64,000 nt of DNA. Origin: Chitinophagaceae bacterium. GTDB lineage: Bacteria > Bacteroidota > Bacteroidia > Chitinophagales > Chitinophagaceae. The position numbers and the translations under genes are program-made. Under the pieces are notes generated by a model. The model saw only the letters and a program-made list of their open reading frames with translations. It was not told the origin of the DNA and did no database searches. Below, one piece after another: positions 23,591 through 63,513 of the stretch (position 1 is its first letter; every line of letters begins with the position of its first letter). The stretch spans positions 1 to 64,000 of the forward strand of contig JACMKU010000123.1 of the NCBI GenBank assembly GCA_014379965.1, in the 5' to 3' direction.

Positions 23591-23680
23591 ACATGAAAGG
23601 AATCGGGAATCAGGAATTGGGAAGTAGGTATCGGCGTTAGTAGGTCCTTTGGACGTTTACCTTAAAACATGAATTAATGA

Positions 23681-29070: not shown

Positions 29071-29081
29071 GCAGTAATCAG

Positions 29082-29237
29082 CGGTGAGGCAAGTGAATGG
29101 TGAGTGGTGAATAGTCAGTGGTTCTCGTTGTTCGCACTCTCATTTCATAGTCGAAGTGATTTTACTAAATTCACGATGCCACTCACCATTCACCACTCAC
29201 CACTCACCATGCACTTGCCTCACCACTCACCGGTCAC
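29082..29237 (+). repeat. Word-palindrome element A2
   Basis: Left arm 29082-29121 (GGTGAGGCAAGTGAATGG, GTGAGTGGTGAATAG) and right arm 29178-29237 (CCACTCACCATTCACC ... CACTTGCCTCACC) around a ~55-nt centre. Even the unusual GGCAAG interruption is mirrored in both arms. The right arm contains the stop codon of the MBL gene (29234-29236). Confidence 0.9.
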
Positions 29238-30094: not shown

Positions 30095-31467
30095 AATGGT
30101 ATGCTACCAGTTTGCTGTTCTGATTCACGTTGAGCGCTTCTCGTGTACATCAATAATAAAAGTCCTATAATGAAGTAGACCATCAATGCGAGTACAGAGG
30201 AACGTTGTGAGCCGGTCAGTTCGTTGATAAATCCGAAACTGAACATCCCAATAACGATAGCGATCTTTTCTGTAACGTCATAGAAACTGAAGAAAGAGGC
30301 AGTGTCTTTTGTCTCGGGCATCAACTTGGCGTAAGTAGAACGGCTGATCGCCTGTATTCCTCCCATGACGAAGCCGACGATCGCGGCGAGGCCGAAGAAT
30401 TCATACTTGCCTTTTACAGGTAGGTAGTATCCAATCAGGCAGATGAATATCCAGACAACCACACATAGCATTAGCGCCTTAAGATTCCCCATGCGTTTCG
30501 AGAGACCTGAAATAATATAAGCGCCGGGAATGGCGATAAGTTGTATGATCAGGATAGCGACGATGAGGTCGGTAGTCTCGATTTGAAGCTCGCTCTTGCC
30601 ATATAGAGTAGCGGCAAGCATCACGGTTTGTACGCCCATGTTATAAAAGAAGAAGGCGATGAGAAAGCGTTTCAGCACTTTCAGACTTCCCAGCTGCCTC
30701 CACACTTTCTGGAGTTCCTTGTATCCTTTCGATAGAATATGCTGTCGAAGGTCACCCGTACCGGCGGGGACTGACTTAGGCAAACGGGAAAGTGAGTATT
30801 GACCGAAAGCCCACCACCAGATGCCGACGAGAAGGAAGCACATCCGAAATTGAATAGTAGAAGCGTCATTATCGGTTTCGTCGCCACCCACTATTCCGGG
30901 AACGAATACCAACACAAAACAGACGAGCTGGAGGATCACACTACCAACATATCCATAGGCAAATCCCTTCGCGCTAATTCGATCCCTGTCCTGTGGTGCG
31001 GCAATCTCGGGAAGGAACGAATTGTAATAAACCAGGCTGGCCCAATAGCCAACACATGCGATGATCATGCAACCTAGTCCTAATCCTAATTGAGAACTTA
31101 AAACTCCCGTGCGGCCGGTTGGAGTTGTGAAAAAGAATAATCCTGCGCATGCTAAGCTGCCAAGCGTGAGGAAGAAATTCATAAAGCTTTTCTTATTTCC
31201 CCTGTAGTCGGCGATCGAAGAAAGCAAGGGGGATATAATTGCTACAACGAGCATCGCAAAGGCCAGGGCATAATTATATAGGGCGGTATTTACGAACTCA
31301 CGTCCAAGAAACTGAACCTTGTCGGCCATCGTATCAGGATTACCATCGCCCGTTACGGCCTCGTAATATGCAGGAAAGATCGTGGAGGTGATGACAAGAT
31401 TGTAAACTGAGTTGGCCCAGTCGTACATGGCCCAGCCGTTGATGACTTTTTTAGAAGCTGTCTGCAT
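30091..31467 (-). CDS. MFS transporter, UMF1/Atg22-like family
   Basis: 458 residues with twelve predicted membrane spans. The N-terminus (INGWAMYDWANSVYNLVITS) is the diagnostic start of the UMF1 family related to fungal vacuolar effluxer Atg22. The MFS-A-like loops SSIADYRGNKKSFM and SGLSKRMGNLKALM are present, as is GGIQAISRSTYAKLMPE. Substrate unknown; an amino acid or small-metabolite efflux role is a family-based guess. It overlaps the MBL gene by 4 nt, forming a two-gene operon. Confidence 0.9.
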   Translation of the reverse strand: MQTASKKVINGWAMYDWANSVYNLVITSTIFPAYYEAVTGDGNPDTMADKVQFLGREFVNTALYNYALAFAMLVVAIISPLLSSIADYRGNKKSFMNFFLTLGSLACAGLFFFTTPTGRTGVLSSQLGLGLGCMIIACVGYWASLVYYNSFLPEIAAPQDRDRISAKGFAYGYVGSVILQLVCFVLVFVPGIVGGDETDNDASTIQFRMCFLLVGIWWWAFGQYSLSRLPKSVPAGTGDLRQHILSKGYKELQKVWRQLGSLKVLKRFLIAFFFYNMGVQTVMLAATLYGKSELQIETTDLIVAILIIQLIAIPGAYIISGLSKRMGNLKALMLCVVVWIFICLIGYYLPVKGKYEFFGLAAIVGFVMGGIQAISRSTYAKLMPETKDTASFFSFYDVTEKIAIVIGMFSFGFINELTGSQRSSVLALMVYFIIGLLLLMYTRSAQRESEQQTGSIPL

Positions 31468-31469
31468 TT

Positions 31470-31638
31470 TTGAGAGTTGAATGAGTTGAATTTGTTGATT
31501 GGTTGAATGAGTTGAATGGGTTGATTAAGTTGATTGGGTTGATTGGTTGATTCAGTTGAATAGGCTGATTTGGCTTAAGAAAAGTAAAGGGTTTCCCCAA
31601 CTTAATCAACCAATCAACTTAATCAACCCAACCAACTA
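31470..31638 (+). repeat. Word-palindrome element D (GTTGATTGG words)
   Basis: Left arm 31476-31572 holds about ten words of the GTTGATTG/GTTGAATG type; a ~30-nt centre; right arm 31597-31638 has CTTAATCAACCAATCAAC and similar. It ends 1-2 nt from the uppP stop codon and starts just before the transporter gene. Confidence 0.9.
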
Positions 31639-31639
31639 C

Positions 31640-32476
31640 CTAAACCTGCCCATCTTCACTAATCACTCCCGTCAATAATAGTATCAACAGAATGATTCCC
31701 GCGATAATCCGATACCAGCCAAACACTTTAAATCCATACACCTTCAGGTAATTGATAAAAAAACGGATGGCGATGATTGCGACAATAAACGCCATCAGGT
31801 TACCCAGCGCAAACGCTATCGTATTATCGGTCGATTCGAGGATGATCTCATATCCTTTCCTCGGAACACCGCTCTGCTTCCAGTCTTTCACAAATACCGA
31901 ATAGGCTGTGGCGGCAAACATGGTGGGCACGGCCAGGAAGAAGGAAAATTCCGCCGCAAGGTTGCGGGTAAATTTTTGCTGCATTCCGCCGATGATTGAA
32001 GCCGCGCTTCGACTCACGCCGGGAATCATGGCGATGGTTTGCCAAATGCCAATGATAAACGCCTTGCCGTATGTGATCTGGTCGTCCGATTCGATACGCG
32101 GCTTATTGAAGGCCTTATCGATGAACAAGAGAATGATACCGCCTGCCAGCATGGTAATGGCAACGGTAGTCGGACTTTCCAGCAACCGGTCTATCTTATC
32201 GGAAAACAGGAATCCAAGTAATAATGCGGGAAGTACGCCAATGATCAGCTTCACATAAAACTGCCAGCTTCGGAAGTCGAAGAACTTTCTCCAATACAAT
32301 ACAACTACTGCCAGGATTGCCCCGAACTGTATGGCGACTTCGAACAGTTTGGTAAATTCATCCGTGTGAATGCCAAGGAGGGAACTCGTGATGATCATGT
32401 GACCGGTGGAGGAAATGGGTAGGAATTCTGTGATGCCTTCAACTATAGCAATGATGACAGCTTCGAGAAGATTCAT
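31640..32476 (-). CDS. uppP: Undecaprenyl-diphosphatase UppP (BacA)
   Basis: 278 residues, about eight membrane spans. It recycles undecaprenyl pyrophosphate to the monophosphate carrier for peptidoglycan and other envelope polymers. Catalytic motifs are intact: [15 protein letters not shown] near the N-terminus and [13 protein letters not shown] in the middle. It is the last gene of the minus-strand ftsX - DUF3098 - uppP set, an order conserved in Bacteroidota. A strong hairpin with a T-tract separates it from DUF3098, so it may have its own promoter. Confidence 0.96.
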
Positions 32477-32866: not shown

Positions 32867-32954
32867 GAAAAGACCGGAAGTCCGAAAGACCGGAAGTCCG
32901 AAAGACAAGTCCTAAATACCGAAAGGTCTTCCGGTCTTTCGGACTTTCCGTCTA
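32867..32954 (+). repeat. Word-palindrome element E1 (GACCGGAAGTCC words)
   Basis: Left arm 32869-32906 (AGACCGGAAGTCCGAAAG, twice), an 18-nt centre, right arm 32921-32950 (AAGGTCTTCCGGTCTTTCGG). It separates ftsX from DUF3098. Confidence 0.9.
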
Positions 32955-36983: not shown

Positions 36984-37010
36984 ACCTTTGCTGCTTTTAG
37001 AAGGTTGATA

Positions 37011-37128
37011 AGTTTAATAGTTTAATAGCTTAAGGGTTTAAGGGTTTAAAAGTTTCTTAATCGATCACCCAATTAGTTTAGAAACTTCTGCCTTATGAAC
37101 TTTTAAACCCTTAAACTTTCAAACCCCA
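37011..37128 (+). repeat. Word-palindrome element C2 (TTTAAGGG words)
   Basis: Left arm 37011-37055 (AGTTTAATAG, TTAAGGGTTTAAGGGTTTAA), centre with GTTTCTTAATCGA, right arm 37095-37128 (ATGAACTTTTAAACCCTTAA, ACTTTCAAACCCC). It lies between leuS and the next gene. Confidence 0.9.
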
Positions 37129-38735: not shown

Positions 38736-38754
38736 TAAAGTGGTGATATTACGA

Positions 38755-38878
38755 TAGTTTAATAGTTTAAGGGTTTAATAGTTTAAAAGTTCTTAAATCC
38801 GAATCTTCTATAGTGAAAGTAAGTTCGAATTAAACAACTATTAAACCCTTAAACTTTTAAACCCTTAAAACCTCAAGG
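38755..38878 (+). repeat. Word-palindrome element C3 (TTTAAGGG / TTTAATAG words)
   Basis: Left arm 38755-38792 and right arm 38832-38872. A 20-nt block, AGTTTAAGGGTTTAATAGTT at 38765-38784, has an exact reverse complement at 38837-38856. The centre starts with GTTCTTAAATCCGA, as in C1 and C2. Confidence 0.9.
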
Positions 38879-38886
38879 ATAATACA

Positions 38887-39739: not shown

Positions 39740-39863
39740 CTAGTGAATAGTGAGTTGTCAATAGTGAGTGTCTCACTGAGTTTGAACTTCCTTCACGATT
39801 CGAAGCCGTAACGTTTTTTCTAAACTCGGAGAGCCACTCACTATTGACAACTCACTATTCACC
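39740..39863 (+). repeat. Word-palindrome element A4 with perfect 28-nt arms
   Basis: Bases 39743-39770 (GTGAATAGTGAGTTGTCAAT... ) and 39835-39862 are exact reverse complements over 28 nt with a 64-nt centre. The right arm includes the stop codon (39859-39861) of the minus-strand gene, and the left arm begins 8-10 nt after the plus-strand stop: a bidirectional 3' element. Confidence 0.95.
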
Positions 39864-40887
39864 GCACCCGCTTCACAAACCTCACCATCGCACTACTCCC
39901 CTCCGTACTTTCAAGTCGTGACTCATATCGCTTGTCTCCTACGAGGGCTACCATGTATGACGTGTTGGGAGGTATTGATCCGAGGTTTTCTGCGACCATG
40001 ATCAGTTCGTTAGTGTCGCGAAGCTCGGTGACCGCCAGTTTGATGGTATAGGAGCTCCCTGTGAGACGAATATGAGTAAAGATCAGCCTATCATTTAGGA
40101 ACAGCGAAATCGAGTCACCGTCGATTTCTGCGTTATCATAGAACCTTAGTTCTATTGAATCACCGTCAATCGGTATTTCCTTGGTCAACACTTTCTTGCG
40201 CGTAGTAAATTTCTCTTCAATTGATTGGATTGGCACAGCCTCTAGAGGTTTGACAATTACCGGCGCGGCTTTCGGAACAACGACAGTTGGTACTTCTTTA
40301 GGCGTTTCGGTTGGTATAGTAACGACTACTGGTGCCTTCGCTTCTTCCTCCACCGGCGGCGCGGATGTGGTATGCAGGGTGGCAATGCTATCGATGATGT
40401 CGGGATCATTTCCTCCCACGAGGTAATTGTCGATTACGAAGTCCCACTCATCTTCGAACGTTCCTTCCCTGATCTTATCGAGATGCACGTCGCCCTTAAG
40501 GTCTTCTTCATACACTTTGCCCGATTTTCCATCTAACATCATTTTGCCGCCACCGGGGCAATTGAAATCAGCTCTCGATAACAATGGCATCTTACCTGGG
40601 GTGGATAAAGTGACCGAACCTGACCTTTCTTCGATCAACTGATCATCCCACCAAACGGCTTCATTTGTCTGTGCATCGAAGTAACCTTTGATGTTGTAAC
40701 GTCGGTAATTATTTGGCGATTCATAATAGTAGGAAGTACCGGCCAGGCTGTCGCCATTTTGGATGATTTTCATCTCCACTTTTTGACGATTAATCTTGCC
40801 TTTCCAGACGCCAGTGATCATTTGCGAATGAGAAGTGATTGAAATCAACATTAAGACTACCAGGGATGCTAGAACGAATCCTTTCAA
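39859..40887 (-). CDS. Secreted protein of unknown function with C-terminal beta domain
   Basis: 342 residues with a signal peptide (MKGFVLASLVVLMLISITSHSQ). Residues ~23-170 form a beta-rich domain (GVWKGKINRQKVEMKIIQNGDSLAG ... YNIKGYFDAQT). A proline/valine-rich linker (~175-225) follows, then a C-terminal domain with the pattern IPIDGDSIELRFYDNAEIDGDSISLFLNDRL and ENLGSIPPNTSYMVAL, a module I have seen in hypothetical Bacteroidota proteins. No catalytic residues stand out. It lacks a sorting domain, so periplasmic or lipid-independent surface association is likely. Function unknown. Confidence 0.8.
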   Translation of the reverse strand: MKGFVLASLVVLMLISITSHSQMITGVWKGKINRQKVEMKIIQNGDSLAGTSYYYESPNNYRRYNIKGYFDAQTNEAVWWDDQLIEERSGSVTLSTPGKMPLLSRADFNCPGGGKMMLDGKSGKVYEEDLKGDVHLDKIREGTFEDEWDFVIDNYLVGGNDPDIIDSIATLHTTSAPPVEEEAKAPVVVTIPTETPKEVPTVVVPKAAPVIVKPLEAVPIQSIEEKFTTRKKVLTKEIPIDGDSIELRFYDNAEIDGDSISLFLNDRLIFTHIRLTGSSYTIKLAVTELRDTNELIMVAENLGSIPPNTSYMVALVGDKRYESRLESTEGSSAMVRFVKRVR

Positions 40888-46105: not shown

Positions 46106-46846
46106 TTGAAAATCTCCCCCTTGATATCGTTGCTTTCACGCCACCATGCAGATTATGCGAGGGTGGTGCCGTTTACTCCAGGAAAAGATGCATTGATTCC
46201 ACTCGATTTTACAGCTGCTAATACTGAATTGACAGATCGAATTCTTGGAGACACACATTTGTTTACAGATTACATCAATACCAAACTCCAACAAAGTAAA
46301 GCACGATATGGAATCGGAGGTTATGGGGAACATCGCACCGTATATCGCACTAGCAGGTTGTTTGATAATGATCTTTCGAAAAATATTCTAACGGGTGACC
46401 TGGCAAATGACGCGATCGCGGAGCCTAGACGGCTGCACCTGGGAACTGACATCTGGGGCAAGCCGCATACTTCCGTTGCCGCACCAATCGATGGTATTGT
46501 GCATAGTTTCGCGTTCAACAACAGGGCTGGAGATTATGGCACGACTATTATTCTATCGCACCAGCTGGAGGGAACAAGTTTTTATACACTATATGGCCAT
46601 TTGAGTCTTAACTCGATTAAGAATATGCAGGAAGGTGATCGCCTACTGAAAGGAGACATTTTTGCTGAGTTCGGCATCCAGGATGAAAACGGCCATTGGC
46701 CTCCCCATCTTCATTTCCAGATCATACAAGATCTGCAGGGGTGGACTGGCGACTATCCCGGCGTATGCCGCTACTCTGAGAGAGAAGCTTATTTGCAAAA
46801 TTCCCCCGATCCAGAGATTATACTTCAGTTAAATCAATACACGTAG
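46106..46846 (+). CDS. M23-type metallopeptidase domain protein without signal peptide
   Basis: 246 residues. The LytM/M23 zinc site is visible: [10 protein letters not shown] (His and Asp ligands) near 112 and HLHFQI near 207, with [18 protein letters not shown] in between. The usual periplasmic address is missing: the N-terminus is soluble ([32 protein letters not shown]), so the protein is probably cytoplasmic. It resembles the middle domain of the large phosphotransferase - M23 - aminotransferase fusion proteins, so a metabolic rather than cell-wall role is possible (inference). Repeat G1 abuts its stop codon. Confidence 0.85.
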
Positions 46847-46965
46847 AATTTCACGCAAAGACGCAAAGGTTCGCAAAGGCGCCAAGCACTACTGAGATCG
46901 AACATTCTTTGCGACTTTGCGAACCTTTGCGTCTTTGCGTGAAACCTATTCTTTGCGTGAAACCC
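46847..46965 (+). repeat. Word-palindrome element G1 (ACGCAAAG / CTTTGCGT words)
   Basis: Begins directly after the M23 stop codon: left arm AATTTCACGCAAAGACGC, GGTTCGCAAAGGCGCC; centre 46885-46909; right arm CTTTGCGACTTTGCGAACC, GCGTCTTTGCGTGAAACC, plus one extra copy of CTTTGCGTGAAACCC. It ends 1-2 nt before the ruvB -7 box. Confidence 0.92.
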
Positions 46966-48006: not shown

Positions 48007-48197
48007 GTAAGACTGGAAGTCGGGAAGACCGGAAGTCCGAAAGTCGGGAAGACCGGAAGTCCGAAAGTCGGGAAGACCGGAAGTCCGGAAGACCAGTCAT
48101 TAAAGAGAAAATTCCCTTCTTCTATGGAATAAAAGAATTTACAAAGCAAGCGAAAGTCTTTCGGACTTCCGGTCTTCCGGTCTTTATTCCGGTCTTT
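48007..48197 (+). repeat. Word-palindrome element E2 (GACCGGAAGTCC words)
   Basis: Left arm 48007-48098 contains at least three tandem 28-nt units of the AAGACCGGAAGTCCGAAAGT type; ~60-nt centre; right arm 48152-48197 (GTCTTTCGGACTTCCGGTC and so on). It starts at the ruvB stop and its right arm includes the rprY stop codon (48196-48198). Confidence 0.92.
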
Positions 48198-52860: not shown

Positions 52861-52883
52861 AATTCTTGGGGAAAACAAGAATT
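52861..52883. other. Hairpin upstream of recQ / downstream of copA
   Basis: AATTCTTG / CAAGAATT perfect 8-bp stem with loop GGGAAAA. No clear T-tract on either side, so its role as a copA terminator is uncertain. Confidence 0.5.
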
Positions 52884-52888
52884 AGAGG

Positions 52889-52950
52889 TCAGAAACAGAA
52901 ACAGAAACAGGAACAGAAACAGGAACAGAAACAGGAACAGAGCGAGAAAC
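52889..52950 (+). repeat. Half word-palindrome element B3 (GGAACAG words, one arm)
   Basis: About eight AGAAACAGGAACAG-type words in one orientation, ending AGCGAGAAACAGG; no complementary arm nearby. It touches half-element A7. A short plus-strand frame here would encode only RN repeats and is not a gene. Confidence 0.85.
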
Positions 52951-52954
52951 AGGA

Positions 52955-52990
52955 AAGCCACTCACCGCTCACCATTCACAACTCACTATT
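52955..52990 (+). repeat. Half word-palindrome element A7 (CACTCACC words, one arm)
   Basis: Right-arm-type words only (CCACTCACCGCTCACCATTC, ACAACTCACTATTA), ending at the copA stop codon (52989-52991). Confidence 0.8.
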
Positions 52991-55127
52991 ACACCACCCG
53001 CTTAATAAACAACCTTCCCGAATTGATTGCCAATACCACATCGCTCAGGCCCATAACGAGTGCACCAAAGGTGGGAGTAAGAAATCCAAGGGCCGCGACC
53101 GGGATGGCGACAATATTATATGCGAATGCCCAAAAGAGGTTTTGCTTGATAGTGATATAGGTATGCTTACCAAGTCCGAGAGCCGTAGGAAGATTCTTCA
53201 ATCCATTATTCATCAGCACCACCTGGGCGGTCTGCATTGCAATCTGCGACGCATCGCTCATGGAGATCCCTACTGTAGCTTTGGCCAGGGCTGGGGCATC
53301 ATTGATGCCATCGCCTACCATCACTGTGGGTGCCGAGGCACTGAGTGCCGCGATCTTTTGTAGTTTTTGTTCGGGTGTCTGTTCAGCTATTACCTCATCG
53401 ATTCCCAATTCTTCCCCGAGTTTTTTTGTCTTCTCATACCTGTCACCACTCAACAGAATTGTTTTGATATTCTTCGAATGCAGGTAGTCCACAACCATTT
53501 TCGCCTCGGGTCTCACCTCATCCTTCACGTCTATCCAACCTATCAGTTCGCCGTTGCGGGTCACATACACGTTGTGCGTATCGCCTTCTCCAGGTGTAGT
53601 CAGCAATTTGTAAGAACCAGCCTGGAAAGTATTTCCATCATTATCTATTCCTTTTATACCAAGGCCTTTTATTTCCTCCACTTTTTTCCAGCGGATCTCA
53701 TTGCCGCTCTTCCATTGCAAATTGATGCTTGCCGCAATGGGGTGGTTGGAATACTTCTCGAGTGAATAAACGATGCGCTTGAATTCATCTCCTGAAATAT
53801 TCTTGTCTATGATCTCCCAGTTGCTTATGTCGAAACGACCGGTGGTCAATGTGCCCGTCTTGTCGAATACAACCTGCTTAATATCCTTAAACAGTTCAAG
53901 ACTTGTTGCATTCCGAAACAGTATTCCACTCCTCGCACCTCTGCCGAGTCCCACTGCAATTGCCGCCGGCGTTGCCAGACCCATGGCGCAAGGACAGGCT
54001 ATCACGAGTACGGCAATGCTTCGCATTAATGCGTCTGTAAAGTTTTCGAGGACGATCCAGTTTACCACTAATGTCAATGCGGCTATAACAAGTACCACCG
54101 GTACGAAAATGGCGCTGATCCGGTCCGCCAACAACTGCACTGGGGGCTTCTCTCCCTGTGCTTGCTTCACAAGGTTGATGATGCCCGACAATACAGTATC
54201 ATTACCTACTGCTGTCACTTGAGCCCTCACTGTTCCATCCTGGATGATACTGCCACCAATCAATTTGTCCTTGCTCACTTTATGCAAGGGCACACTCTCA
54301 CCTGTCAGCAGCGATTCATTAACATGTACATCTCCCCACAATATTTTGCAATCTGCTGGTACCTGTTCTCCCGACTTGATAAGTATCAGGTCCCCGTTTT
54401 TTAGTGCGGTGTTTTCTACAGGGAATATTTGTTCCTGGTATTGATCATCAAAAGCGATCATATTAGCCATCACCTTCTGTGAACGGGCGAGTTTATGTAA
54501 AGCTTTCTGCGTGGAGTGGACCGAAGCATCTTCCAGGTAATTGCCAAGAAACACCAGCGTGATGATCGTGGCTGTGGTCTCGTAGAACATGTAATTAGCC
54601 GCCTGTCCCGTGAGTGTGCCATACAGGCTATAGACGAAAGATGCGGTGGCACCTACGGCGATCAACACATTCATATTAGGTATGCCGTTTCGCAGGCTTT
54701 TCCATGCACTCTTCCCGAAGAAGCTCATTCCTACGACGAACACCGGAAGCGACAGGCCCAATTGCACCCAGGGATTCATCAGCCAATGAATATGACCCGT
54801 TCCCGGAATCATGTGCAACATCAGGAGCGCCGTAAAAGGAAGACAAAACCAGAATCGCTGAATGTGAGTGGAGAGCAACGGTTTGGACGGGGTACCACTT
54901 GGTGCCGCGGCGCCTTCGACCGTATAGCCGAGTTCCTGAATGCCCGTGGCCAATTCATCCGCATGATTGTCTTCCTTCATCTCAAAAGCGACGTCTCCCG
55001 TGCCAAAATTCACCTTCACCTCCTTCATGCCTTTCTTCTCGAGGTAACGGCGAATGGTGAGAGCACAATTCGTGCAATCCATTCCCTGTACTTTCCATTG
55101 AATCTTTTCCATATTGCTATTGGCCAT
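52989..55127 (-). CDS. copA: Copper-type heavy-metal P1B-ATPase
   Basis: 712 residues. One N-terminal metal-binding (HMA) domain with GMDCTNCA (Cys18, Cys21), then the P-type core: intramembrane CPC in VIACPCAMGLATP near 377, phosphorylation site DKTGTLT near 421, nucleotide-binding SNHP, and GDGINDAPAL near 607. Membrane helix 5 has the YN pair (FAYNIVAIP). Helix 6 reads MGLSDVVLAINS, where most copper exporters have MxxSS. It probably exports Cu(I); the Ser-to-Asp change could alter preference. A second in-frame ATG (55112) is a possible start. No chaperone or regulator gene is adjacent. Confidence 0.93.
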   Translation of the reverse strand: MANSNMEKIQWKVQGMDCTNCALTIRRYLEKKGMKEVKVNFGTGDVAFEMKEDNHADELATGIQELGYTVEGAAAPSGTPSKPLLSTHIQRFWFCLPFTALLMLHMIPGTGHIHWLMNPWVQLGLSLPVFVVGMSFFGKSAWKSLRNGIPNMNVLIAVGATASFVYSLYGTLTGQAANYMFYETTATIITLVFLGNYLEDASVHSTQKALHKLARSQKVMANMIAFDDQYQEQIFPVENTALKNGDLILIKSGEQVPADCKILWGDVHVNESLLTGESVPLHKVSKDKLIGGSIIQDGTVRAQVTAVGNDTVLSGIINLVKQAQGEKPPVQLLADRISAIFVPVVLVIAALTLVVNWIVLENFTDALMRSIAVLVIACPCAMGLATPAAIAVGLGRGARSGILFRNATSLELFKDIKQVVFDKTGTLTTGRFDISNWEIIDKNISGDEFKRIVYSLEKYSNHPIAASINLQWKSGNEIRWKKVEEIKGLGIKGIDNDGNTFQAGSYKLLTTPGEGDTHNVYVTRNGELIGWIDVKDEVRPEAKMVVDYLHSKNIKTILLSGDRYEKTKKLGEELGIDEVIAEQTPEQKLQKIAALSASAPTVMVGDGINDAPALAKATVGISMSDASQIAMQTAQVVLMNNGLKNLPTALGLGKHTYITIKQNLFWAFAYNIVAIPVAALGFLTPTFGALVMGLSDVVLAINSGRLFIKRVV

Positions 55128-55825: not shown

Positions 55826-57040
55826 ATGAGCCAGCAAAAGCCTAAAATTAGTACCTCCTTTAGCTACGAGACCCTTGAGGAAACGCTGGACATTAAGCCC
55901 AAGGCACAGGGAATGATGATTGGGATACCCAAAGAGATCGCATTCCAGGAAAATCGTATCGCCCTTACCCCCGATGCAGTGAGCGTGCTCGTCAGCAATG
56001 GCCATAGCGTAGTAATCGAACATAATGCCGGTGAAGCGTCGCATTTCAGGGACAAAGACTACAGTGAAGCGGGGGCTAAGATAGTTTACGACCGAGCCGA
56101 TGTATTCAAGGCGCCGGTATTGGTGAAGAGTGCCCCAATCATAGAAGAAGATATTCCATTATTACAGGTTAGCCAGGTGATCATTTCGCCCATACATCTT
56201 TCTGTTTTGAAGGCCGACCTACTCGAAAAAATGATGGATAAGAAGATCACCGCGATCTCTTTCGAGAATCTGAAAGACGATAGTGACTCCTATCCCATCG
56301 TTCGAAGCATGAGCGAGATCGCCGGAAGTGCGGTCATGCTGATAGCCGCGCAGTACTTGAGCTCCGCCAATCACGGCAAAGGCGTCCTGCTTGGAGGTAT
56401 CTCCGGTATCGCGCCAACTAAAGTAATTATTATCGGTGCCGGCATCGTCGGCGAGTATGCCGCACGTGCGGCGCTCGCGCTTGGCGCATCCGTAAAAGTC
56501 TTCGATAACAGTGTGTATAGGCTAAAGAGATTGCAGAATAATATTGGTCATCGACTATGGACTTCCGTGATGGAGCCAAGAATGATTGCCAAGCAATTAA
56601 AGACCTGCGAGGTCGCAGTGGGTGCGCTTGCTTCAGAGACTGGTCGTACACCAATGGTGGTAACCGAGGAGATGGTCAGTAATATGCGACCGGGGTCCGT
56701 CATCATCGATGTGAGCATCGATCGCGGCGGTTGTTTTGAAACATCGGAGATCACTAGTCATGAGCATCCCATCTTCCTGAAATATGGCGTCATTCACTAT
56801 TGCGTTCCCAACATACCATCGGGCTTTGCGCGTACCGCATCACAGGCAATCAGTAATGTGCTGATGCCTCTGTTGCTTGAGGCGGGTGAAGAGGGTGGCT
56901 TCGAAAGACTCGTATGGCACCAGGTACACCTTAGAAGTGGCATCTATCTCTTCAAAGGTGCTCTTACCAATTTCTATCTGAGTGAAAGGTTTGATCTTAA
57001 GTTCACCGACCTGAATCTGTTGATTGCGAGTCAGCGGTGA
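55826..57040 (+). CDS. ald: Alanine dehydrogenase
   Basis: 404 residues, about 35 more than B. subtilis Ald because of an N-terminal extension (SQQKPKISTSFSYETLEETL) before the conserved MIGIPKEIAFQENRIALTP. NAD-binding motif VIIIGAGIVGEYAARAAL; substrate residues in the GIPKEIAFQENR and SPIHLSV segments; catalytic-type His in IISPIHLS; VIIDVSIDRGGCFETSE near the active site. Converts L-alanine to pyruvate and ammonia, or the reverse. Bacteroidota often have this gene beside tsaE. Its stop codon (57038-57040) is part of repeat A6. Confidence 0.93.
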   Translation: MSQQKPKISTSFSYETLEETLDIKPKAQGMMIGIPKEIAFQENRIALTPDAVSVLVSNGHSVVIEHNAGEASHFRDKDYSEAGAKIVYDRADVFKAPVLVKSAPIIEEDIPLLQVSQVIISPIHLSVLKADLLEKMMDKKITAISFENLKDDSDSYPIVRSMSEIAGSAVMLIAAQYLSSANHGKGVLLGGISGIAPTKVIIIGAGIVGEYAARAALALGASVKVFDNSVYRLKRLQNNIGHRLWTSVMEPRMIAKQLKTCEVAVGALASETGRTPMVVTEEMVSNMRPGSVIIDVSIDRGGCFETSEITSHEHPIFLKYGVIHYCVPNIPSGFARTASQAISNVLMPLLLEAGEEGGFERLVWHQVHLRSGIYLFKGALTNFYLSERFDLKFTDLNLLIASQR

Positions 57041-57175
57041 GTGAGTGGTGAATGGTGAGTGGTGAGTGGCTCTCCGCAATTTGAAAATACTTTGTTTATG
57101 AAAACCTCTTAGCAGGGTCGAAATTCAGAATCCACTCACAATTCACCACTCACTACTCACCACTCACCACTCACT
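57034..57175 (+). repeat. Word-palindrome element A6 spanning two converging stop codons
   Basis: Left arm 57034-57073 (GCGGTGAGTGAGTGGTGAAT ...) includes the ald stop; ~55-nt centre with GGGTCGAAATTCAGAA, shared with A5; right arm 57131-57175 (TCCACTCACAATTCACCACT ...) includes the rhodanese stop codon (57171-57173). The element exactly fills the convergent gap. Confidence 0.93.
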
Positions 57176-58382
57176 TGATCAGCATATCATTACACCCAAA
57201 TAGCTCCACATTATTCATATACCATTCCCAGCGTCCCGTTCCTCCCACCAGGTAGCTGATTTTATATCCTTTCCTGGAAAGGGCATCTGCGAGTTCGAGC
57301 CCTTCGATGCCATTCTCAGAATATAGTGTGTACTCTTTACGCTTGTCAGTAAACTGTTTTTCAAACATCCCCTCGCCTTTTCCAACAAAGAAGTTTTCCG
57401 CATTCTTGAGATGTTTGAAATCGTGCTTCACTCCATCGTTAACCTTGTTGAATAAGGTGTCATGTCTCAGGTCGACAAGGACCACCGACTTTTTATCTTT
57501 TTTCGCGCAATAGTTGAGGGCGGTAAGAAATTCGACCTCAGTTTGTTTCTTGAAATATTTATTGGTCAGCGCTGGCTGCACCCTGTTGGCCACGGTCTCA
57601 TAAAACAGGTTAGGCCCGCCGACAAGGTATGACACGTCTTTCACGCCTTTATTCGCAAGCCAATGTGCTAATTCGGCCGCTCCATTGTTAACAAGATTGA
57701 ATAACACAACCGGCCTGTCCTTCACCTTTTGTACCTCCTGCAACACAAGGAGTGAATCGGCGTAATCGAACATCACAGTCTTAGCCGGCAAAGGATAGTA
57801 TGTGTAGAACCGGATGGTTGCTGTATCGTAGAAGAATCGCGGCGTGTTACGAATGCCGAGGAGCAGGATGTTCTTATTTGTAGAAAGTTGATCGAACAAT
57901 TCGTTGGGTGAGAGATTGCGATAGGTAACGGAACTTTCGAGGTACGCCTCGCGGAATGGGGTCAAATCATCGTATCGGCGATACCATTCCGTCATGCCAC
58001 CCTGTACATTACTTACATTGGTAAATCCATTCTTCAGCAGGATGTTCGAGGCCGCCCGGCTACGATAGCTATGCGAACAGATGAGGTATATCTCTTTGTC
58101 TTTGTATGGTTCGAGTTTCTTTAAAGCCTCGGGGTTTTGCTGAAGCTCTCTTAATTCGATATGTATGGCATCTTTAATGCGGCCTATATTGGATTGCCTG
58201 AACCGGGAAGCGGAGTCATAATATTCGCCGTTTGACCTTACATCTACGATGACCATGTCCTTGCCGCCGTGTTGTTTCTTTCGCATGAGGTCCGGTAGAG
58301 TTATCTCTTTATAGTTATCCTGGGTGCTACCGCATGCGCAGATAAGGAGTAGGGAAAGGAGGGGCACAATTTGCTTTGTCAT
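57171..58382 (-). CDS. Lipoprotein with three rhodanese-like domains
   Basis: 403 residues from the ATG at 58382 (an ATG 18 nt upstream would push the signal peptide inward). Signal peptide with lipobox ICAC, lipid on Cys17. Three rhodanese-like domains: ~22-135, ~150-265 and ~280-400. The first has the active loop CSHSYRSR with Cys102, so it could carry a persulfide; the second (LFNLVNNGAAELA) and third (LYSENGIEGLELA) lack the cysteine. Such proteins move sulfane sulfur or sense it in the periplasm. It follows an AraC regulator gene on the same strand by 30 nt. Confidence 0.9.
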   Translation of the reverse strand: MTKQIVPLLSLLLICACGSTQDNYKEITLPDLMRKKQHGGKDMVIVDVRSNGEYYDSASRFRQSNIGRIKDAIHIELRELQQNPEALKKLEPYKDKEIYLICSHSYRSRAASNILLKNGFTNVSNVQGGMTEWYRRYDDLTPFREAYLESSVTYRNLSPNELFDQLSTNKNILLLGIRNTPRFFYDTATIRFYTYYPLPAKTVMFDYADSLLVLQEVQKVKDRPVVLFNLVNNGAAELAHWLANKGVKDVSYLVGGPNLFYETVANRVQPALTNKYFKKQTEVEFLTALNYCAKKDKKSVVLVDLRHDTLFNKVNDGVKHDFKHLKNAENFFVGKGEGMFEKQFTDKRKEYTLYSENGIEGLELADALSRKGYKISYLVGGTGRWEWYMNNVELFGCNDMLIK

Positions 58383-59325: not shown

Positions 59326-60114
59326 TTATTGTTTGTATTCGGAGATGCTCAATTGGTGTTGGCAGAATCGGTATTCTACCTTGTCATTGCTGCTTACAAT
59401 TACCAGCCTTCCGCTGCAATACTCGCTGACCATGCGGTGATAGAGCTCAATGCCTGCCGCATCCAGGTTTGTACAGGGTTCATCCAGAAGGATCACGGGC
59501 GTATCCGAGAAAATAGCCTGGCCAAGTTTCACCCGTTGCTTCATCCCGGATGAATAATACCGGATCTGCTTATTCGCCGCCTTCTCCAATCCGAGTATTG
59601 CTATGATCGAACTCGTCGTAAGCCCATTTAAAAATGGTTTAAACCCATGATGAAAATTCAGGAACTCCGTCAATGTCATTTCCTCAACTACCTCCATATA
59701 TGGCGCGCCTATCGAAATCCATCTAAACACCCGTTCACTATTTAATTGCCAATCGCCAACTGCCAATGAAGCCTGATTGACCGACGAATCGACCATCGTC
59801 ATGTGCCCATTGCTTATTGTCCATTTCTTATCCTTAGGCGAAACGTGACTATTGGCAATTGGCAATTGCCTATTGGCCATTGCCCATTGCCTATTGCCAA
59901 TTGCCAATTGAGTATTGCCACCTGCCCAATGAACAATGCCTTCATTCGTATGCATCGATCCGGCTATCACTTGCAGCAGAGTGCTCTTACCTGATCCATT
60001 GGGACCGGTAATCGCATAGGTGCCTCCTTTTTCAAAATTGTAAGTTAAATGGCGGAATATCCATTCACGATTGAACCGTTTTCCTGCATCAGATAGGGAG
60101 ATCGTCATCGCCAT
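59326..60114 (-). CDS. ABC transporter ATP-binding protein carrying an in-frame repeat insertion
   Basis: 262 residues; relatives of this compact type are ~200-210. Walker A GPNGSGKS (37-44), signature YYSSGMKQR (186-194), Walker B VILLDEPCTNLD (207-218) and a final IVSSND are intact. Between the Walker A and the Q-loop-like ERVFRWISIGAPY, residues ~64-125 are an insert translated from repeat H (TQLAIGNRQWAMANRQLPIAN ...), low in complexity and unlike any ABC domain. It keeps the frame, so the protein may still fold with an exposed loop. The start overlaps the lpxA end by 26 nt (20 if the ATG at 60108 is used). No permease gene is adjacent. Substrate unknown. Confidence 0.85.
   Translation of the reverse strand: MAMTISLSDAGKRFNREWIFRHLTYNFEKGGTYAITGPNGSGKSTLLQVIAGSMHTNEGIVHWAGGNTQLAIGNRQWAMANRQLPIANSHVSPKDKKWTISNGHMTMVDSSVNQASLAVGDWQLNSERVFRWISIGAPYMEVVEEMTLTEFLNFHHGFKPFLNGLTTSSIIAILGLEKAANKQIRYYSSGMKQRVKLGQAIFSDTPVILLDEPCTNLDAAGIELYHRMVSEYCSGRLVIVSSNDKVEYRFCQHQLSISEYKQ
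59744..59940 (+). repeat. Word-palindrome element H (ATTGGCAATTGGC words) inside a coding sequence
   Basis: Left part 59744-59769 (TAATTGCCAATCGCCAACTG ...), centre ~80 nt, then 59849-59920, itself a palindrome (ATTGGCAATTGGCAATTGCC facing CATTGCCCATTGCCTATTGC ...), and a final CCCAATGAACAATGCC. This is the only word-palindrome of the window within a gene. Confidence 0.9.
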
Positions 60115-60895
60115 TGCCTTTGGTGAAGCGTTTTATGATGCCACGGCGCGAAGCCCTGATAAACTGGACGATCTCATCTCTTTCATCGCTGGCAGCGAAT
60201 TCTTCTTCGAGGTATTCAACAGCTTGGGAGATATTTAAGCCTTTGCCATAGATCACCCTGTATATTTCTAAAATATGATTGATCTTCTCTACGCTGAAGC
60301 CTCGTCTTTTTAATCCAATAGAATTTACGCCCGCGTAAGAAATAGGATTGCGGGCGCCCTTGATATACGGAGGCACATCCTTACCAACTAATGACCCGCC
60401 ACTCAGCATTGCATGCTGTCCAATATGTACAAACTGGTGAATCGCACACATGCCACCTAGGATCGCCCAGTCGTCGATAACCACGTGACCTGCGATCTGG
60501 GTGTTATTGCTCATGATCACGTTGTCGCCCACGAAACAATCGTGCGCAAGGTGGCAATATGCCATTATCAGGCAGTTCTTACCTACGACTGTCTTCTCCT
60601 TGTCTTTGGTGCCACGGTTCACAGTTACGAACTCACGAATTGTGGTGTTGTCACCTATGACTACCTGTGAGTATTCGCCCTGGAACTTCAAGTCCTGGGG
60701 AATAGCGGCAATAACAGCTCCTGGAAATATTCGGCAGTTTTTGCCGATGCGTGCGCCTTCCATGATGGTCACATTCGATCCTACCCACGTGCCGTCACCA
60801 ATCTCTACATCCTGGTGAATAACGGTGAACGGATCAACTTTTACATTCGTGGCAAGCTTGGCATTAGGATGAATATATGTGTGCGGATGTATCAT
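60089..60895 (-). CDS. lpxA: UDP-N-acetylglucosamine acyltransferase LpxA
   Basis: 268 residues. First step of lipid A synthesis: transfer of the R-3-hydroxyacyl group from acyl-carrier protein to UDP-GlcNAc. The left-handed parallel beta-helix is evident from hexapeptide repeats such as VEIGDGTWVGSNVTIMEGARIGKNC, with the catalytic His in AYCHLAHDCFVGDN; the C-terminal helical tail (GFSVEKINHILEIYRVIYGKGL) is complete. An ABC ATPase gene overlaps its 3' end. A terminator-like hairpin sits in the short leader. Confidence 0.97.
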   Translation of the reverse strand: MIHPHTYIHPNAKLATNVKVDPFTVIHQDVEIGDGTWVGSNVTIMEGARIGKNCRIFPGAVIAAIPQDLKFQGEYSQVVIGDNTTIREFVTVNRGTKDKEKTVVGKNCLIMAYCHLAHDCFVGDNVIMSNNTQIAGHVVIDDWAILGGMCAIHQFVHIGQHAMLSGGSLVGKDVPPYIKGARNPISYAGVNSIGLKRRGFSVEKINHILEIYRVIYGKGLNISQAVEYLEEEFAASDERDEIVQFIRASRRGIIKRFTKGNGDDDLPI

Positions 60896-62003: not shown

Positions 62004-62144
62004 ATTTCACGCGAAGACGCAAAGTTTCGAAAAGACGCGAGGGGTTTCATTTATTGGCAGAAATCTTCGCGAAGCATTGATGAATTTCCCTCTCGAGAAT
62101 TTCTTTGCGTCTTTGCGAACCTTAGCGTCTTTGCGTGAAACCCT
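62004..62144 (+). repeat. Word-palindrome element G2 (ACGCAAAG words)
   Basis: Starts right after the AraC stop (ATTTCACGCGAAGACGCAAA ...), centre ~70 nt with its own TCTTCGCGAAG, right arm 62100-62144 (TTTCTTTGCGTCTTTGCGAA, CCTTAGCGTCTTTGCGTGAA ...) and supplies the last bases of the ferritin stop region (stop at 62143-62145). Confidence 0.9.
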
Positions 62145-63326: not shown

Positions 63327-63498
63327 TGCCCTCGCTCTCGCTCTGTTTCTCGCTCTGTTCCTGATCCTGTTCCTGTTTCTGTTCCTGTTTCTGTTCCTCT
63401 TCTAACGATCTTTCTTAAAACTTAGAGCGAGAAACAGAGCGGGAGCGAGGGAGAGAAACAGGAACAGGAACAGAAACAGGAACAGGGCGAGAGCGAGG
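63327..63498 (+). repeat. Word-palindrome element B4 (CTGTTCC / GGAACAG words)
   Basis: Left arm 63330-63399 (CTCGCTCTCGCTCTG, CTGTTCCTGTTTCTGTTCC ...), a ~25-nt centre, right arm 63424-63498 (AGAGCGAGAAACAG, GGAACAGGAACAGAAACAGG ...). Sits between the nitroreductase stop and the cytochrome peroxidase promoter. Confidence 0.92.
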
Positions 63499-63513
63499 TA
63501 ACACCCAACCAAC

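Follow-up and report, generated by a model that had tools for sequence, protein, structure and literature searches.

A heptamer repeat array carried in frame by an lpxA-coupled ABC ATPase of a Chitinophagaceae bacterium, and arrays of other words in its orthologues

Tandem heptamer repeats that are dispersed through bacterial genomes are known from the STRR of heterocystous cyanobacteria and from the TAACTGA direct repeats, which have been reported in Beggiatoaceae, cyanobacteria and five Bacteroidetes. In the passages of the source consulted these repeats are described as mostly intergenic, only a few TAACTGA sets are placed inside open reading frames (ORFs), and the rule that stop codons in the translated word bar TAACTGA from genes has already been stated (PMC4679880). 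The arrays described here share with STRR the tandem heptamers, a species-specific consensus and many copies (587 for the word GGCAATN in the genome under study, G000). They differ from both, as far as those passages extend, in comprising several words and inverted hairpin pairs, in having many in-frame housekeeping hosts, and in placing different words in one and the same loop in different lineages (PMC4679880). Rickettsia palindromic elements, with 44 integrations from ten families in R. conorii, have been interpreted as selfish DNA compatible with protein function and, in the parts of the source seen, are families of about 150 bp that encode a conserved peptide and lie in frame in unrelated metabolic genes (PMC10969869). 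The present arrays likewise lie in frame in unrelated protein genes, ten hosts having been named by NCBIfam in the relatives G011 and G078, but they form no such families and encode no such peptide; their unit is a 7-mer, the number of units varies, the words change with the lineage, and some arrays take the place of existing sequence at unchanged length. A further likeness is found in the amino-acid tandem repeats of Borgs, where nucleotide repeats within ORFs make disordered segments that are genome-specific and fast evolving, with unit lengths divisible by three and sequences that are almost all unique to their site in the portions of the source available (PMC9879509). The unit here, of 7 nt, is not divisible by three, and one word recurs genome-wide.

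Palindromic repeats of 20-40 bp, termed REPs, have also been described in the excerpts consulted (PMC3733652). The present arrays are similar to the REP/RAYT system in including dispersed intergenic palindromes, many of which are close to gene 3' ends, and are unlike it in being heptamer arrays and in lacking a linked Y1 transposase in the five genomes tested. DNA uptake sequences of Neisseria and Pasteurellaceae are short species-specific words that occur in coding and intergenic DNA, in inverted pairs after genes and otherwise as single copies, with one word per species. Here the words stand in tandem and a genome has several families of them, which makes this an analogy only. Coding inverted repeats in nematomorph mitochondria provide a further comparison, again from part of the source (PMC6649704). 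In the open-licence PMC literature, as far as its passages were covered, no description of such arrays in Chitinophagaceae was found, and the combination of heptamer words, in-frame housekeeping hosts and reuse of one loop is absent from PMC4679880, PMC10969869 and PMC9879509 as far as their passages show.

The window, by which the whole 64,000-nt stretch analysed is meant (positions 1 to 64,000 of contig JACMKU010000123.1, assembly GCA_014379965.1), carries on its reverse strand, at 59326..60114, an ABC ATPase of 262 aa (Pfam ABC_tran, 1.8e-21), which is the host of the repeat element studied here, element H. ORFs were defined by length, without a gene finder; the ATG of this ORF is at 60114, while its orthologues begin at ATG 60108 (MTISL...). 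The neighbouring gene on the same strand (60089..60895), recognised by its sequence, is presumably lpxA, encoding UDP-GlcNAc acyltransferase, and its 3' end overlaps the start of the ABC gene by 26 nt, counted from ATG 60114. Relatives of the ABC ATPase are present in all 61 genomes searched, and lpxA adjoins the ABC gene in 75 of 80 loci, with overlapping ends in most of them.

A sequence-only reading of this DNA had proposed that H adds about 55-60 residues in frame behind Walker A, ahead of the following conserved block, leaving all catalytic motifs intact. Walker A, the signature (SSGMKQ), Walker B (LLDEP) and the downstream blocks are indeed unbroken and in order. Among 118 distinct Chitinophagaceae orthologues the span from GKST to the conserved APY has a mode of 37 aa, and the 91 aa of the present gene, the longest of the set, therefore place the insert at about 54 aa, slightly less than had been suggested; in other families of the same order (21 genomes) the loop is again 37 aa, with a range of +1 to -4. 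Relative to the orthologues, the insert is best placed at 59752..59913 on the reverse strand, an in-frame stretch of 162 nt (a multiple of three) without stops, whose ends are ambiguous by a few codons, and the ATPase segment that contains it includes TQLAIGNRQWAMANRQLPIANS. Word-bearing flanks extend to 59744 and about 59940, which makes the limits first given for the element, 59744-59940, fair ones. The alignment that had been proposed as a check shows H to be new relative to all orthologues examined, and identical residues were not found in many genera, though GGCAAT-type words do occur in the loop of Foetidibacter and Niastella. The fold model that had likewise been proposed as a check, made with AlphaFold2, has pLDDT below 50 across nearly all of residues 67-118 and above 90 in the core; the prediction is thus of a disordered loop, one that the host seems able to tolerate.

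As G000 is known from a draft assembly of 221 contigs, in which repeats are a risk, a repeat-driven misjoin has been considered as the origin of H. The two halves of the gene match a single orthologue and are joined in frame, lpxA lies upstream just as it does in relatives, and similar loop arrays are found in the one-contig genome G011 and in the named isolates Foetidibacter luteolus, Niastella caeni and Terrimonas pollutisoli, which leaves an artefact of assembly barely credible.

The internal structure of H is that of a partly decayed hairpin of GGCAATN heptamers. Its inner palindrome is a dense array of GGCAATN and its reverse complement at 59846..59919 (reverse strand), detected by a period-7 scan that gave 0 matches in 20 Markov shuffles of the window. 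Folding and a map of the units place a short outer arm at 59744..59770 (reverse strand), made of decayed forward words (GGCAGTT GGCGATT GGCAATT on the coding strand), which pairs in the fold with reverse words of the dense array. Between the two, at 59771..59845 on the same strand, the unit map and direct reading reveal a degenerate word-like stretch (GGACAATAAGCAATGGGCAC...) and a non-word spacer. The term palindrome, which had been applied to H as a whole, is only partly apt, since the inner part is dense and the other arm short and decayed. With at most one mismatch, H holds 16 forward and 7 reverse GGCAATN units (1000 shuffles: mean 1.9, maximum 7), and its period-7 score of 19/21 was matched by 0 of 2000 codon shuffles; these values lie beyond the shuffles, and chance is thus not the source of the repeat structure. 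By the period scan, H is the sole in-gene element in the window. Stops in its three frames number 0, 3 and 6, which is weak evidence. In a comparison of off-frame stops, word loops (27 and 77 in the two other frames) and control loops (48 and 141) have the same asymmetry, which shows the coding frame only.

The folding of H (z = -4.45 against dinucleotide shuffles and -3.4 against codon shuffles) has a bearing on another explanation, in which the element is a functional RNA hairpin within the lpxA-ABC operon. It would act on the transcript by attenuation, stabilisation or punctuation, a role that word hairpins between genes may have behind stop codons, and, as the lpxA overlap leaves no gap, would sit in the first tolerant loop. 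Codon-shuffle values in other loops (L075, -7.4; L110, -5.5; L023, -3.6; L150, -3.3) agree with this, as does the frequent adjacency of lpxA described above. Array-bearing loops in general, however, mostly hold direct repeats and fold into no strong hairpin (mean z -1.8; control loops -0.9), most orthologues are without any array, and in G011 and G078 arrays sit in many unrelated genes, so that an RNA function is considered quite unlikely.

The word of which H is composed belongs to a genome-wide family, in agreement with the earlier proposal that such elements reach new sites, coding ones included. The pattern GGCAATNGGCAATNGGC, with one mismatch allowed, accounts for the 587 matches in G000, against 1 for the control and 0-32 in seven relatives, which makes GGCAATN the dominant dispersed word family found in G000. 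Samples of each genome were taken around word matches, and element classes were set by simple thresholds. Around 20 such places in G000, GGCAATN arrays are intergenic, often tens of bases from a stop codon, and the remaining sampled ones run into an ORF, either at its end or at a start that was probably called too far upstream; no clear mid-gene GGCAATN array was found in the stretches fetched around these 20 places. The sequence-only reading had also held that the elements are not old terminators, which does not follow for these other copies, which are intergenic, are often near stop codons and may have a role at 3' ends. Copies differ in unit number, order and length. The frequent variant GGCAATA yields, by reasoning from its sequence and without a count, a TAG every third unit in any frame, and this may be why the arrays of G000 mostly stay outside genes.

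The loop occupied by H carries arrays in other orthologues as well. A period array at p<0.001 (codon shuffles) was detected in the loop of 23 of the 118 orthologues, where about 0.1 would be expected; the rate is a biased one, since long or split loops were the reason for choosing some of the genomes. The presence of arrays at this place in 22 other orthologues shows that H is no isolated case. Scores of 17/21 or more were reached by 20 loops and by 0 gene remainders, and the period is 7 in all p<0.001 arrays in loops longer than the 37-aa baseline; two of the 23 (L043 and L053) carry arrays at baseline loop length. In 430 kb around 80 separately fetched orthologues, five of eight strong arrays lie in the ABC gene, two are intergenic and one is a collagen-like repeat, with a Markov null of 0. 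The trait is scattered on a tree built without the loop and needs at least 19 state changes, which indicates that loop arrays have often been gained or lost. Steps of 21 nt in loop length were also considered and dropped, the lengths not being clearly quantised.

Loop words vary by lineage and include GGCAATN, GTTAACG, TATCAGC, CTCCGAC, AACAGCC, AGTCGAT, AAGTCAG, CAATGGT and others. In four tested lineages the loop word has been shown to be a word dispersed in the same genome: besides GGCAATN, counts in eight genomes are 31 in G078 (control 15) and 0-5 elsewhere for GTTAACN, 29 in G028 and 0-3 elsewhere for TCCGACN, and 39 in G011, 80 in G000 and 0-7 in the other six for AATCAGN, in which G000 is rich although its own ABC loop is without it. 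These data bear on local replication slippage, by which a chance short repeat in a tolerant loop would have grown in place, independently of elements elsewhere. The tandem nature of the arrays and the variable length of the loop in Chitinophagaceae, which ranges from 37 to 91 aa among species of one genus, are compatible with such growth. It is poorly supported as a sole explanation by a unit of 7 nt, which shifts the frame at every step, and by a word that is common genome-wide; H moreover contains both orientations of its word, and arrays in HemW and ArgS (see below) are length-neutral replacements. Slippage acting alone is for these reasons held to be unlikely.

Arrays inside other enzymes have been detected in two relatives. 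By sample, arrays are mainly intergenic in G000 and G028, the ABC gene being the sole convincing mid-gene case in the latter, and most or all are mid-gene in G011 and G078: 15 of 23 sampled arrays lie more than 60 nt inside ORFs in the one-contig genome G011, and five of five in G078. The ten hosts in these two genomes are ArgC, N-acetylornithine carbamoyltransferase, ArgS, an ABC-F protein, IspG, HemW, AnmK, MetG, BioA and TrpE. In the MetRS of G078, residues 254-282 align to two chain residues of the solved MetRS 1rqg, and the segment at 254-281 has almost no counterpart there. In-gene arrays of G011 (L210-L229) are in the orientation that reads QSAIGN in 15 of 16 cases (p=5e-4), a count that includes the ABC loop, and several of its intergenic arrays are inverted pairs. 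The pure word GGCAATC is stop-free in either orientation, with a polar reading QSAIGNR and a more hydrophobic reverse reading IADCRLP, so that the bias would seem to lie with the peptide; the 15:1 orientation points, at the level of sequence, to translation and protein-level selection.

Comparison with congeners distinguishes insertion from replacement. In G011 the ABC loop exceeds the baseline by 14 aa and three congeners have near-baseline spans, which identifies the array of G011 as an insertion. In the ArgS of G011 (L250) the array adds one residue relative to three congeners, and in its HemW (L258) an array that reads LLPIADCRLLIADLL replaces LLSISDLGFLISALR with length unchanged relative to congeners; a second HemW array of G011 is common to one congener. 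These nearly length-neutral cases indicate that the process can replace as well as insert. The earlier phrase that the elements insert or expand thus holds for H, which is an insert, and falls short for the HemW and ArgS arrays, which overwrite conserved coding sequence at about the same length. AnmK has different word variants at the same place in two congeners (L264 in G011, L265 in G297) and is a possible second recurrent site.

Replacement in place is poorly explained by slippage, and also by transposition. A transposase-driven mobile palindrome such as an RPE, REP or MITE would be dispersed, hairpin-forming and in frame in unrelated genes, as Rickettsia palindromic elements are in the passages of the source consulted (PMC10969869), and the arrays resemble it in these respects. 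They nevertheless have no fixed sequence or ends that could be seen, their unit number and order vary among copies, their length-neutral overwriting is unlike transposition, and none was found beside Y1 (RAYT) transposase genes at 15 loci in five genomes, in fetched flanks of up to about 1.5 kb. Movement of this kind is regarded as improbable. Fifteen Y1-transposase matches were observed in G147 (L270 and further loci), and ten of these agree in both score and frame length, which hints at recent activity of an IS200-like element in that genome.

The reading preferred here, to which a probability of roughly 0.68 is given, is that H is a translated copy of the dominant STRR-like GGCAATN family of G000, placed in the loop that comes after Walker A and the subsequent beta strand, spread by ectopic copying, passed by selective filtering and kept as a near-neutral passenger. 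Arrays would spread by ectopic copying or template switch, inserting or replacing sequence, and purifying selection would filter the genic copies, passing those whose total length is a multiple of three or length-neutral, without an in-frame stop, with a polar peptide and in a surface loop. H itself would merely lengthen a disordered loop, and the ABC loop would be a permissive site; a local function or a mutational hotspot could account for its recurrence instead. A bolder and rather doubtful proposal is that an undescribed process in Chitinophagaceae writes the genome's own heptamer word into new places, replacing conserved coding sequence too, and time and again reshapes the surface segments of housekeeping enzymes, using QSAIGN-like peptides peculiar to the genome. 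Judging from the sequences compared, new protein segments seem to have arisen from repeat DNA again and again. If this is true, a large bacterial family gains protein segments from repeat DNA, aminoacyl-tRNA synthetases and central biosynthetic enzymes included, and the different words that different species hold in one loop offer a natural series for learning how non-triplet repeats enter genes, what copies them and what protein-level selection lets pass.

Additional word arrays and hairpins occur in the window. The hairpin nearest to H, a contrast case at 57038..57178, is made of ACTCACC/ATTCACC and lies between convergent gene ends. Others were observed at 29080-29227, 31467-31645, 32870-32953, 37002-37126, 38746-38880, 39740-39883, 46844-46964, 48009-48175, 52879-52993 and 63330-63501. 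Their units measure 6 to 9 nt and represent several words, and where positions were compared with the ORFs they are intergenic, many of them directly after stop codons. The stretch 62101-62142 is similar to 46905-46946, and 23601-23617 (AATCGGGAATCAGGAAT) carries another heptamer word of G000, AATCAGG/AATCGGG, with 80 pattern matches genome-wide.
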